Positions 54,158-58,370 of a DNA stretch of 64,000 nt are shown piece by piece. The stretch's first letter is position 1, and each line of letters opens with the position of its first letter. The DNA comes from Cycloclasticus pugetii PS-1 (GTDB taxonomy: Bacteria > Pseudomonadota > Gammaproteobacteria > Methylococcales > Cycloclasticaceae): assembly GCF_000384415.1 (NCBI RefSeq), contig NZ_ARVU01000001.1, positions 1,922,001 through 1,986,000 of the forward strand. The letters run 5' to 3'. Made by a program: the position numbers and the translations under genes. The notes beneath the pieces were generated by a model. It was not told where the DNA came from and made no database searches. It saw nothing but the letters and a program-made list of their open reading frames with translations.

Positions 54158-54793
54158 ATGAACAAAGCTAAACGCCTAGAAATATTCGAGCGACTCGCTC
54201 AAGCTATCCCTGAACCTGAAACCGAACTTAATTACAGCTCACCTTTTGAGCTTTTAATTGCAGTTATCCTTTCTGCTCAAGCTACCGACAAGGGAGTTAA
54301 CAAGGCGACCGATAAATTATTCCCTGTTGCCAACACGCCTGAAGCTATTTTTGCACTCGGTGAAAAAGGACTCAAAGAATATATTAAAACTATCGGGCTT
54401 TTTAACACCAAAGGCAGCAACGTTATCAAAACCTGTAAAATGTTAATGGAACAACATAATAGCCAAGTCCCTCAAACTCGCGAGGAACTTGAAGCCTTAC
54501 CGGGCGTTGGGCGAAAAACGGCAAACGTTGTTCTAAACACTGCCTTTGGTGTTCCGACTATCGCTGTTGATACGCATATCTTTAGGGTCAGTAATCGCAC
54601 TAAAATTGCCACCGGTAAAAATGTCTTAGAGGTTGAAAAGAAACTTGAAAAAAACGTACCAACAGCACACAAGCTTGATGCCCATCATTTACTGATTCTT
54701 CATGGTCGATACACGTGTATTGCTCGAAAACCACGCTGCGGTTCATGCGTCATTGAAGATTTATGTGAATTTAAAGACAAAACCATCTATTAG
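54158..54793 (+). CDS. nth: Endonuclease III
   Basis: Base-excision glycosylase/AP lyase removing oxidised pyrimidines. The helix-hairpin-helix is LPGVGRKTANVVL with the catalytic lysine K120, and the catalytic aspartate is D138 in AVDTH. These are the same numbers as in E. coli. The C-terminal [4Fe-4S] loop includes CIARKPRCGSCVIEDLC. Length is 211 residues. Confidence 0.97.
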   Translation: MNKAKRLEIFERLAQAIPEPETELNYSSPFELLIAVILSAQATDKGVNKATDKLFPVANTPEAIFALGEKGLKEYIKTIGLFNTKGSNVIKTCKMLMEQHNSQVPQTREELEALPGVGRKTANVVLNTAFGVPTIAVDTHIFRVSNRTKIATGKNVLEVEKKLEKNVPTAHKLDAHHLLILHGRYTCIARKPRCGSCVIEDLCEFKDKTIY

Positions 54794-54857
54794 ATCATTT
54801 TTAAATCAAGCTTATTAATTCTAGTAAAACTAAAACAAGCTGTAAGTTTTTTAAACT

Positions 54858-54885
54858 TTGCTTGGTCTATTAAAGCGCATATAGT
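54858..54885 (+). promoter_or_regulatory. Possible promoter of the MNIO/bufferin-type operon
   Basis: TTGCTT (54858-54863) and TATAGT (54880-54885) are spaced 16 bp apart, 85 bp before the precursor ATG. An ECF-type promoter cannot be excluded, because related loci are often ECF-controlled. Confidence 0.4.
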
Positions 54886-54970
54886 AAACCGGCTTACTCT
54901 TGTCGGTACTGCAGACAAACGCACTGAAATAAACAGTGACCCGAGAATAAAAAAACAACAGGATATTCTT

Positions 54971-55324
54971 ATGAAAAACCCTACAAAAAAACCAATCATC
55001 ACCGCGTTAGGGGCTGCCTTTGTCACCTCAATGGCATTTACTCCAGTCGTAAACGCAGACACAAACCCATTTGGCGCAACTGAATTAAAAACTGGCTACA
55101 TGGTGCTTGCCGAAGGTAAATGCGGTGAAGGCAAATGCGGTGAAGGTAAATGTGGTACTGAAAAAGCTGCTGACAAAGTAAAAGAAGCAAAATGCGGTGA
55201 AGGTAAATGTGGCGCTGAAAAAGCTGCTGACAAAGTAAAAGAAGCAAAATGCGGTGAAGGTAAATGTGGCGCTGAAAAAGCTGCTAACAAAGCAAAAGAA
55301 GGTAAATGTGGCTCTAAGAAGTAA
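54971..55324 (+). CDS. EGKCG-repeat secreted precursor peptide (HvfA/bufferin-like RiPP)
   Basis: A 117-residue protein with a signal peptide (cleavage likely after VVNA, residue 29). The rest is a Lys/Glu/Gly-rich low-complexity chain. It has six EGKCG motifs (48-52, 53-57, 58-62, 77-81, 96-100, 110-114) and two EAKCG (72-76, 91-95). All eight cysteines fall in these motifs. In nontypeable Haemophilus influenzae HvfA, EGKCG cysteines are converted by an MNIO enzyme to oxazolone/thioamide copper ligands. The MNIO gene starts 12 bp downstream, so the same chemistry is likely. AGGAT provides the ribosome-binding site. Confidence 0.9.
   Translation: MKNPTKKPIITALGAAFVTSMAFTPVVNADTNPFGATELKTGYMVLAEGKCGEGKCGEGKCGTEKAADKVKEAKCGEGKCGAEKAADKVKEAKCGEGKCGAEKAANKAKEGKCGSKK
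55112..55156 (+). repeat. Triplicated 15-bp EGKCG-coding unit
   Basis: Three head-to-tail copies encode EGKCG at residues 48-62. They differ only at third-codon positions, so the repeat is kept at protein level. Confidence 0.85.
55184..55297 (+). repeat. 57-bp tandem duplication within the precursor gene
   Basis: Copies 55184-55240 and 55241-55297 differ at only two bases. Each encodes a 19-residue unit with EAKCG and EGKCG followed by AEKAAxKxK. The near identity, including silent positions, points to a recent duplication. Confidence 0.92.
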
Positions 55325-55336
55325 CGCTAGCTAGCA

Positions 55337-56191
55337 ATGATTAATACCTTTCCCGTTCATGGAGTTGGGCTTGGATTAAGGCGGGCCTTTATAGGCCCGC
55401 TAGTTGAAAAGCCGCCTAGCAATATAGATTTTTATGAAATCGCTCCTGAAAACTGGATAAAAATCGGTGGTCGATATGGTAAGCAGTTACGCGCCTTAAC
55501 CGAACAGTTTCCTTTTGTAGCACATGGTTTGTCACTCAGCCTAGGTAGCCCAGACCCACTAGACGTTAAGTTCATTCGCGACATTCGAGATTTTATTAAA
55601 CTACATCAAATTAAGGTTTATACCGAACATCTCAGCTATTGTAGTGATGGCGGTCACCTATACGACCTGATGCCCATCCCGTTTACTCAGCAAGCAGTTG
55701 AATACGTAGCTGAGAGGATTCTCCACGTACAAGATATTCTTGGCCAACAAATTGCCATTGAAAATGCCTCTTACTATGCTGCCCCTGGTAAGGAAATGGA
55801 AGAAATTGATTTCATTAACGCAGTGATAAAAAAAGCCGATTGCAAGTTACTGGTCGATATTAACAATATATATGTCAACAGCGTAAACCATAAATACAGT
55901 GCGGAAGAATTTTTGAAAGCACTACCCGGTGACCGCATAAGCTATGCACATATTGCAGGACACTATAACGAAGCCGACGATATTATTATTGATTCTCACG
56001 GTGCTAATGTCATTGATCCTGTCTGGCAATTACTCGATAAAGCTTACGACAATTTTGGCCTATTTCCCACCCTATTGGAGCGTGACTTTAATATTCCACC
56101 ACTACCTGAGTTACTCGACGAGGTTCACCTTATTCATCAAGCCCAATTAAATTATTCACCCCAATCAGGTCAAAAACGTGTCGCAAAATAA
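55337..56191 (+). CDS. MNIO family (DUF692) multinuclear iron-dependent oxidase
   Basis: A 284-residue TIM-barrel-type enzyme of the family that includes MbnB and HvfB, which modify peptide cysteines using two or three iron ions and oxygen. Likely metal ligands by motif are H63 (HGLSLSLGS), E97/H98 (YTEHLSY), E142 (IENASYY), D174 (DINNIYVN), H205/H209 (AHIAGHY), D219/H221 (DSHG) and E249 (LLERDFN). Its predicted substrate is the EGKCG precursor encoded 12 bp upstream. It overlaps the DUF2063 partner gene by 14 bp. Confidence 0.94.
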   Translation: MINTFPVHGVGLGLRRAFIGPLVEKPPSNIDFYEIAPENWIKIGGRYGKQLRALTEQFPFVAHGLSLSLGSPDPLDVKFIRDIRDFIKLHQIKVYTEHLSYCSDGGHLYDLMPIPFTQQAVEYVAERILHVQDILGQQIAIENASYYAAPGKEMEEIDFINAVIKKADCKLLVDINNIYVNSVNHKYSAEEFLKALPGDRISYAHIAGHYNEADDIIIDSHGANVIDPVWQLLDKAYDNFGLFPTLLERDFNIPPLPELLDEVHLIHQAQLNYSPQSGQKRVAK

Positions 56192-56945
56192 CGCGCCTTC
56201 TTTCATGCAAACTCAACATGCATTCACCCGCTATATTCGTGACCCAAAAAATGCGCCAAAACCGAGTGATATTGAAGAACGACGCATAAATATATACCGC
56301 GACCTTCTGTTCACCAATATTGCCAGCGCGCTTAGTGATGGATTCCCGGTTGTTAAGACTATTTGCTCTGAACAACAATGGGAAAATATCTGTAGAGATT
56401 TTTATCATCGTCACCCAAGTCAAAGCCCCTACTTTTCTGACATTCCCCAAGAGTTTATCCACTATTTAGAGCACGAACGCACAAGTAATTCAGACGCCAT
56501 TGATGATACTCCATTCCTACTAGAGCTAGCTCATTATGAATGGCTTGAGTTTATCGTTTCCATTACTGACGATGAAGCCTACCCTCCCATTAGCGACCCT
56601 TTCAATCAAGCTTTAACCGTTGCGCCAACAGCCTTAGTTGCTGCCTATACCTACCCCGTACATAAAATTTCGCCTGACTTTTTACCCGCCGAACCACCCG
56701 ATCAGCCAACATACCTAGCCGTTTACCGCAATATTGAGCACACAATATGCTTTTTAGAAATAACACCAACAACACATGCCTTGCTTATCGCATTAGCCGA
56801 CAACACAAGCCAATTAACCAAAGACATTTTGTCAACATTAGCTAAAAACCTTCAACACCCAGACCCTAGCGTTGTTATACAAGGAGGGCTATCCATAATT
56901 AATGACTTTATTCATCGTGGTATCGTCGTTTCTGCCCCTAATTAA
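56178..56945 (+). CDS. DUF2063 domain partner protein (HvfC-like)
   Basis: A 255-residue protein with the N-terminal DUF2063 text FTRYIRDP, IEERRINIYRDLLFTNI and LSDGFPVVKTI. Proteins of this type bind the MNIO enzyme and are needed to present the precursor (MbnC, HvfC and TglI play analogous roles). The start is GTG, overlapping the MNIO gene by 14 bp; an ATG at 56205 is the alternative. The C-terminal half is a less conserved helical domain. No DoxX-like HvfD gene follows. Confidence 0.92.
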   Translation: MSQNNAPSFMQTQHAFTRYIRDPKNAPKPSDIEERRINIYRDLLFTNIASALSDGFPVVKTICSEQQWENICRDFYHRHPSQSPYFSDIPQEFIHYLEHERTSNSDAIDDTPFLLELAHYEWLEFIVSITDDEAYPPISDPFNQALTVAPTALVAAYTYPVHKISPDFLPAEPPDQPTYLAVYRNIEHTICFLEITPTTHALLIALADNTSQLTKDILSTLAKNLQHPDPSVVIQGGLSIINDFIHRGIVVSAPN

Positions 56946-57029
56946 TTTAACCCTCAGCACTTAAAACGAGCTTGCGATAGCCGCCTGAGCTATTTTCAAA
57001 ACTTTTTAACCCGCTAATGCCTGCTTTTT

Positions 57030-57058
57030 TTAAGTCCTTCATCTTTATTGCTTATAAT
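57030..57058 (+). promoter_or_regulatory. Probable promoter of hemL
   Basis: A perfect TATAAT (57053-57058) lies 17 bp after a weak TTAAGT (57030-57035). Transcription would start near 57065, after a TTG at 57048 and before the ATG at 57090. Confidence 0.5.
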
Positions 57059-57089
57059 GTTCCGTTATTCAAATAAACCACCCATTGAT

Positions 57090-58370
57090 ATGAGCAACTC
57101 TTCTCTTTTTGATCAAGCACAACAATCTATTCCTGGCGGGGTTAACTCACCGGTTCGCGCCTTTAAAGGTGTCGGTGGAGACCCTGTTTTTATCGACCAT
57201 GCAAAGGGCGCATACCTTGTTGATACTAACAATAAACAATATATCGACTATGTTGGTTCCTGGGGCCCTATGATCTTAGGCCATAGCCACCCCGATGTTG
57301 TTAAAGCCGTCCAAACAGCGGCCGAAAAAGGGCTTAGTTTTGGTGCACCCACCATTATTGAAACCACGATGGCAGAAAAAGTGTGCCAACTAGTACCATC
57401 CATTGAAAAAGTACGCATGGTCAGCTCCGGAACAGAAGCCACCATGAGTGCTATACGTTTAGCTCGTGGTTACACAGGCCGTGACAATATCATTAAATTT
57501 GAAGGCTGTTACCACGGTCACTCCGATTCATTATTGGTAAAAGCCGGTTCTGGCGCACTCACTTTTGGCGTTCCCAGCTCACCGGGTGTACCAGCCTCAC
57601 TGGCCGACCACACCCTAACGCTTCCCTATAATGATGCTGAAGCGGTCTCGCAATTATTAAAAACCAACGGCAATGACATCGCCTGTATTATCGTCGAACC
57701 AGTCGCTGGCAATATGAACTGCATACCTCCAGAAACCGGCTTCCTTGAGTGCTTACGAACATTATGTGACCAATACGGCATTGTGCTGATTTTTGATGAA
57801 GTGATGAGTGGCTTTCGCGTCGCGCTTGGTGGCGCACAACAAGTGTATGGCGTAACGCCCGATTTAACCACACTAGGCAAAGTCATTGGGGGTGGTATGC
57901 CTGTCGGTGCTTTTGGCGGCCGCGCTAAAATCATGGCTGAACTTGCACCTGATGGCCCTGTCTACCAAGCTGGCACCCTATCAGGCAACCCCCTAGCTAT
58001 GTCTGCTGGGCTCGCAACACTTGAGCTTATTAGCCAACCTGATTTTTACCACCAACTATCACTCCGTACCACGCAGTTATTGGATGGTCTAAACAACATT
58101 GCTAAAGAAGCCAACATCCCTTTTTCTACCAACCAAGTGGGCGGTATGTTTGGCCTATTTTTCTCTGAGCACAAAAATATTCGCCGCTTTAGCCAAGTCA
58201 TGGCATGCGACCAGGCACGCTTCAAACAATTCTTTCACCTTATGTTAGAACAAGGGATCTACCTCGCCCCTTCTGCCTTTGAAGCTGGGTTTGTCTCTGC
58301 TGCGCATAGTGAACAAGATATTAACGACACACTTCATGCTGCCAAGGTCGCCTTTGAGAAATTAACATGA
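57090..58370 (+). CDS. hemL: Glutamate-1-semialdehyde 2,1-aminomutase
   Basis: PLP enzyme making 5-aminolevulinate in the C5 heme pathway. The Schiff-base lysine is K264 in [12 protein letters not shown]. Other motifs are [29 protein letters not shown] and [10 protein letters not shown] chose the ATG at 57090 (426 residues, the E. coli length). A TTG at 57048 would add 14 residues, but its codons overlap the -10 box. It overlaps the globin gene by 4 bp. Confidence 0.97.

Follow-up and report, generated by a model that had tools for sequence, protein, structure and literature searches.

Cycloclasticus species are marine hydrocarbon degraders, and a stretch of 64,000 nucleotides of the C. pugetii PS-1 genome (the window, whose first letter is position 1 in what follows) holds a short cysteine-rich precursor gene beside the genes of a DUF692 iron enzyme (MNIO) and a DUF2063 protein. 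The locus raises the question of what peptide such a gene set would make, and what that peptide would do for the cell. Our literature search returned no paper combining Cycloclasticus and MNIO.

Identity and layout of the three genes

The genome that carries the locus is a single contig of 2.38 Mb, 99.99% complete. The preliminary description had placed three open reading frames at 54971-56945, with the DUF2063 gene overlapping the MNIO gene, and this layout was recovered (Table 1), hvfC having a GTG start and overlapping hvfB by 14 nt.

Table 1. Features of the hvfABC locus, with positions in the window
Feature	Position	Strand	Description and evidence
hvfA precursor	54971-55324	+	117 aa; EGKCG-type; NCBIfam match, genus alignment of 15
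hvfB, MNIO (DUF692) peptide-modifying iron enzyme	55337-56191	+	284 aa; NCBIfam, Pfam, AlphaFold2 model
hvfC, DUF2063/NGO1945-type partner protein	56178-56945	+	255 aa; NCBIfam, Pfam, PDB 3DEE
Cassette array in hvfA	55112-55308	+	TRF and parse of sites
Predicted ECF-sigma-type promoter of hvfA	54842-54871	+	Alignment of 15 Cycloclasticus spacers
Probable hvfA ribosome-binding site AGGATA	54960-54965	+	Read from sequence
nth (endonuclease III), kept upstream neighbour, outside pathway	54158-54793	+	TIGR01083 278.3 bits (cut-off 211.7)
hemL (glutamate-1-semialdehyde aminomutase), downstream neighbour in genus, outside pathway	57090-58370	+	TIGR00713 631.2 bits (cut-off 527.3)

The HvfA, HvfB and HvfC family and gene roles proposed earlier are borne out by NCBIfam and Pfam matches, and by PDB and structural matches. 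The precursor matched the repeated KCGExKCG domain (NCBIfam NF050137) at 55.7 bits (cut-off 19.5, E 2.8e-15) and scored 84.4 bits against the full-length equivalog NF050188, under the cut-off of 95, so it was classed as an EGKCG captophorin and not as an HvfA equivalog. Moreover, no Pfam match was obtained for it at E ≤ 1, and it is therefore without DUF2282. HvfB reached 434.1 bits against NF003818 (cut-off 360, E 1.9e-130) and matched Pfam PF05114, while HvfC reached 280.1 bits against NF050145 (cut-off 142, E 1.7e-83), matched PF09836 and PF22106, and found PDB entry 3DEE at E 5e-10. A methanobactin-type locus was ruled out by the NCBIfam score of HvfB against the MbnB family (46.4 bits, cut-off 325), and a DUF2282 bufferin by the lack of a Pfam match on the precursor together with an HvfB score of 265.8 bits against the BufB family, under the NCBIfam cut-off of 310. 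The bufferin likeness that had been drawn thus holds in part: an MNIO with a DUF2063 partner, a probable signal peptide and putative copper handling are common to this locus and to bufferins (BufABC) as described in PMC12452194, but bufferins proper, with their DUF2282 precursors, are a sister group.

In addition, the PS-1 genome was searched for further copies, and no second KCGExKCG precursor, MNIO gene or DUF2063 gene was found in it. A DoxX/HvfX gene is absent from the hvfABC operon. A single DoxX protein was found in the genome; it belongs to the HvfX family (232.7 bits against NF050144, cut-off 80), a frequent though dispensable companion in such systems, and its gene lies 173 kb from hvfABC, at genome position about 2152001 (L160:11002-11595, + strand). 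The genome thus encodes HvfX as well as HvfA, HvfB and HvfC, with hvfX unlinked. This hvfX gene stands directly downstream of a transporter-like open reading frame.

A PDB sequence search with HvfB returned 3BWW (E 2.8e-69), another DUF692 protein and MbnB, and the AlphaFold2 model of HvfB (pLDDT 87, from 32 sequences) had 3BWW as its best structural match (E 1.2e-23, 39% identity), followed by TglHI and MbnB. According to PMC13419390, 3BWW is 72% identical to H. influenzae HvfB, in which N175, D242 and H244 are essential; mapped via 3BWW, at an offset of one, these residues would correspond to N176, D219 and H221 here. For FonB, PMC13097082 describes D249 as the catalytic base, with F250 adjoining it, and R15 and R16 as residues of the Lys-Cys group; by motif mapping via 3BWW, rather than by comparison with a FonB sequence, the probable counterparts are D250, F251 and, in the same places, R15 and R16. 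N176, D219, H221 and D250 are invariant in the 32 HvfB sequences, and R15, R16 and F251 are kept in at least 90% of them. The earlier statement that the DUF692 ligands are in place is thereby supported for the iron-site residues N176, D219 and H221, through a mapping that is partly inferred. A Phe following the catalytic Asp is described as conserved in the Lys-Cys group (PMC13097082), and its presence is consistent with the KCG sites found here. The eight closest MNIO relatives are 77-87% identical and come, by title, from six Cycloclasticus MAGs, one Piscirickettsiaceae and one Methylococcaceae.

Read by eye, HvfA residues 1-29 are a probable Sec-type signal peptide (MKNPTKKP, a hydrophobic stretch and VNA, ahead of DTNPF) that is kept in the genus, and the leader NPFGATELKTGYMVLAE is near-invariant across 15 Cycloclasticus precursors. 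H. influenzae HvfA lacking its signal sequence is reported to be poorly modified, from which its authors conclude that the signal peptide acts as a leader (PMC13419390). AlphaFold2 run on the genus alignment of HvfA gave no fold (pLDDT 41.6) and DSSP gave nothing; a beta-helix fold is described for 17-residue repeats (PMC12452194).

The oxazolin system of Haemophilus influenzae (hvfABCX) has in common with this locus an EGKCG precursor with a Sec-like signal (a probable one here), the HvfB MNIO, HvfC and an HvfX in the genome, but its six sites, in three AEGKCGEGKCG motifs (PMC13419390), differ from the eight found here in 19-aa cassettes with Lys/Ala-rich linkers, and hvfX is unlinked here. 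Fontiphorin (fonABC), of the captophorin Lys-Cys group, is alike in its EGKCG repeats and in the R15, R16 and Phe by the catalytic Asp of its MNIO, with seven sites as opposed to eight (PMC13097082). Bulbicupramide (mmrABC of Microbulbifer) is alike in its cassette core, its conserved leader with variable site number and its genus-wide conservation, with 5-8 sites in MmrA (PMC12538549) against the wider range in Cycloclasticus given below. Overall, the locus is an operon of the EGKCG captophorin/oxazolin kind, sound and well conserved, whose family is known and widespread, and it brings Cycloclasticus into this known copper-peptide family.

The cassette array and its variation

As had been noted, every cysteine of the precursor lies in an EGKCG/EAKCG site (eight of eight; six EGKCG and two EAKCG). 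The array begins with three EGKCG sites, continues with two 57 bp units, each a linker with EAKCG-EGKCG, and ends with a final linker and one EGKCG. At the DNA level, TRF detected a tandem repeat with a period of 57 bp (3.1 copies, 94% matches, score 310), and this score together with the NCBIfam E-values places the array beyond chance. The number and arrangement of sites, initially considered unusual, are not so. Precursors carry 4-14 cysteines among the 15 complete Cycloclasticus sequences (leaving out L139, cut by a contig end), where eight is mid-range, and 2-13, with a median of 6, in 83 loci outside the genus (not deduplicated, save for L112, left out as a duplicate of L038); the longest protein on record is described as having 58 (PMC12452194). 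Eight sites is an ordinary number for the family.

The linkers were then compared within and between genomes, using 46 units from 15 genomes. Among linkers of equal length, DNA identity was 0.95 within genomes (28 pairs, of which L034, L035 and L037 supplied 19) and 0.62 between genomes (244 pairs), the parser having put an extra EGKCG on some first linkers; this contrast was reached by none of 300 label permutations, in which genome kinship is ignored. Third codon positions of residue-identical units agreed likewise more within genomes (0.86, 36 pairs) than between them (0.61, 338 pairs). The array evolves by whole cassettes, which are homogenised within genomes. Sharing one leader, having 4-14 cysteines and standing each beside a related enzyme pair, the 15 complete orthologues form a natural series in which any scaling of capacity, processivity and aggregation with the number of sites could be followed.

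Some Cycloclasticus precursors, among them L036, L136 and L033 (the last from a Bathymodiolus symbiont by its title), have KCA in place of KCG in later cassettes, and a published enzyme is described as favouring a small residue at the position replaced. In another EGKCG precursor, that of L093, an insert (DADGDGSITKEE) looks EF-hand-like; EGKCG/EF-hand fusions have been described before (PMC12452194).

Conservation, neighbourhood and promoter

The precursor was found in 16 of 18 Cycloclasticus genomes, the two without it being 89% and 58% complete, and hvfB and hvfC adjoin it in 15 of these 16, the remaining locus being cut by a contig end. All 15 Cycloclasticus loci with enough flank keep the order nth-hvfABC-hemL. 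At L037, hvfC is separated from hemL by a pair of genes for a cytochrome bd-type oxidase, one of them assigned to subunit I by NCBIfam. Outside the genus, of 61 loci with at least 2 kb of upstream sequence, 40 have nth upstream in the same orientation, 5 have it on the opposite strand and 16 lack it in the available stretch. With the genus included, it is linked in 48 of 69 loci (80 loci taken), with a gap from nth to hvfB above 2 kb in 4 of the 48; the 80 loci are the closest relatives, and the figure is therefore not family-wide. Linked loci include some titled Methylobacter, Thiohalobacter and Sedimenticola, and the Nitrosomonas loci L083, L086 and L099 have no nth. Pairwise distances of Nth and HvfB are correlated (Spearman 0.50, 0 of 999 permutations, 55 linked loci with Cycloclasticus included), which fits vertical inheritance and is no proof of a common function. 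A literature search on nth-hvf linkage gave nothing relevant by title among ten of its 16 matches, and the linkage goes unmentioned in the available text of PMC12452194 and PMC13097082, searched for nth and endonuclease.

Upstream of hvfA, positions 54841-54890 are the most conserved part of the nth-hvfA spacer in 15 Cycloclasticus loci, with a mean column conservation of 0.91-0.96 for 20-nt segments starting at 54841-54871, against 0.18-0.83 for the others. This block holds the predicted -35 box GTAAGTTTT (54842-54850) and -10 box GGTCTATT (54864-54871). It also runs on past the -10 box into CGCATATAGT, conserved to the same degree, and AAAGCGCATATAGT (54872-54885), just 3' of the predicted -10, hardly varies across the genus though it would be expected to be transcribed leader. 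An RNA element in the hvfA 5' UTR was considered and rejected, as Rfam gave no match at E ≤ 1 over 54700-57100 and RNAalifold gave no pair from 16 sequences; no conserved RNA pairing was found that accounts for 54872-54885.

On the plus strand of the nth-hvfA spacer a sigma-70 scan found no site, and over 54700-57200 the six promoter-like sites (5.8 expected) and two terminator-like sites (2.6 expected) were at chance level. With strict patterns, the Cycloclasticus promoter matched the PS-1 genome once, at this site, with no second target, and the reversed pattern gave 0 matches. As a regular expression, the Cycloclasticus-type promoter matched 10 of 69 precursor upstreams, the matches at L037 and L115 being off the block site. 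An ECF-like pattern of GAAACTTTT-N-GTCGTA-like sites, which had been picked out by eye in the same data, was scored on another 69 upstreams without Cycloclasticus (loci not deduplicated, some starts wrong or antisense ORFs), where it occurred in 15 in the sense direction and in 0 antisense, was missing in the other 54, and had a mean of 0.045 in 200 Markov controls; a looser form gave 16 of 69 sense and 0 antisense, with a mean of 0.2 in controls. The Cycloclasticus -35 box departs from this pattern by AAGT for AACT and by a spacing one base longer. The pattern from these other upstreams resembles ECF/sigma-E promoters, and the promoter of hvfA is predicted to be of the ECF-sigma class.

As for the sigma factors themselves, the PS-1 genome encodes RpoE (TIGR02939, 299.7 bits, cut-off 236.15) and at least one further ECF sigma factor (TIGR02937, 65.9 bits, cut-off 42.9), and five sigma region-4 matches, one of them below cut-off, were obtained besides these two genes. 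By eye, a GAACT-N16-GTCT-like site stands upstream of rpoE, and none is obvious at the second ECF sigma gene. Both the ECF-like promoter and the retention of nth next to the locus point to a stress operon of long standing, inherited vertically, and not to a mobile resistance gene.

Copper buffering and alternative roles

The oxazolone/thioamide chemistry invoked in the preliminary description is outdated: the authors of the HvfA assignment, like others, have since replaced it with 5-thiooxazole, and oxazolin, fontiphorin and gonophorin are now described as 5-thiooxazole peptides in which each Cys loses four hydrogens, or -4 Da (PMC13419390, PMC13097082). Copper binding is reported for fontiphorin, gonophorin and bulbicupramide (PMC13097082, PMC12538549), and EGKCG peptides are described as binding copper in a manner suspected to be stochastic (PMC13097082).

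With gene identity and conservation established here, and modification, export, copper binding and induction carried over from relatives by analogy, we consider it very probable that this HvfABC-type (EGKCG captophorin/oxazolin) operon of Cycloclasticus makes an exported, multi-site Cu(I) buffer peptide. An ECF-type sigma factor encoded elsewhere would activate hvfA in response to envelope, oxidative or metal stress; HvfC would hold the signal/leader region of HvfA and support the iron cluster of HvfB; and HvfB would carry out a four-electron oxidation of each Cys, converting the eight E(G/A)KCG sites to 5-thiooxazoles, as in relatives. The modified HvfA would then be exported by Sec and, if it binds copper as its relatives do, act as a flexible multi-site Cu(I) buffer in the periplasm, with HvfX, encoded 173 kb away, as a likely helper. 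Array length would shift through cassette gain, loss and homogenisation, leader and enzymes staying fixed.

Other roles were weighed against this one. It seems unlikely to us that the main role is in oxidative or reactive-chlorine stress, in which the thiooxazoles would be a sink for oxidants or redox equivalents, with copper binding as a secondary property, given the copper binding of fontiphorin, gonophorin and bulbicupramide; even so, the ECF-like promoter of hvfA would suit such a role, as would the H. influenzae hvf/doxX cluster, putatively RpoE2-regulated under hypochlorite (PMC7907618), and the endonuclease III neighbour, though linkage alone is no proof. The three copper P-type ATPases over cut-off and the one multicopper oxidase match already present in the PS-1 genome also favour it. 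A locus that is decayed or silent, with non-functional genes, is highly improbable, as all ORFs are intact, the catalytic residues are invariant, and leader and promoter are conserved across the genus.

Supply is another possibility, the peptide being a copper store for copper membrane monooxygenases instead of a detoxifying buffer. AMO/pMMO-like subunit A occurs in 12 of 18 Cycloclasticus genomes, and precursors average 9.9 Cys where it is present (n=11) and 7.25 where it is not (n=4), a difference that is suggestive at most (permutation p 0.049 one-sided and 0.086 two-sided, without regard to kinship); of the four genomes lacking the enzyme, two are only 78-80% complete. EGKCG leader-cupredoxin fusions in the order-mates G007 and G014, in the latter inside an AMO-like operon, point the same way, but the PS-1 genome, at 99.99% completeness, shows no AMO/pMMO-like subunit A and keeps the operon nonetheless, and we regard a supply role as rather improbable. 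Returning to the Cu(I) buffer, we put forward, as speculation, that the EGKCG array could be a quickly evolving copper-dose dial, in which cassettes are gained, lost and homogenised per species while leader, promoter and enzyme pair stay constant, so that site number would track the copper load of the cell (e.g., from copper monooxygenases); relatives would have gone further, fusing leader and sites to a cupredoxin, once inside a copper monooxygenase operon.

The fusions, from genomes G014 and G007 of the same order and another family, are proteins of about 270-276 aa in which an HvfA-like leader and KCG sites are fused to a cupredoxin domain (L114:5531-6361, - strand; L165 and L166). The G014 fusion matched Pfam Cu-oxidase_2 at 26.4 bits (cut-off 20.4) and NF050137 at 24.3 bits (cut-off 19.5), and adjoins AmoC/AmoA/AmoB-like genes and a multicopper oxidase, with hvfBC on another contig. 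The word 'cupredoxin' does not occur in PMC12452194. Queried whole, the fusion found some match in 306 of 311 genomes of the order, a few perhaps through the EGKCG part only; KCG sites were present in two of the 20 best cupredoxin loci and absent from 16, the filter having missed the other two (L176 and L177). Finally, four cupredoxin homologues (L167, L168, L169 and L172) have isolated N-terminal CG sites, e.g., GMACGANM and VCGSNM, and these are perhaps remnants or relatives of the fusions.
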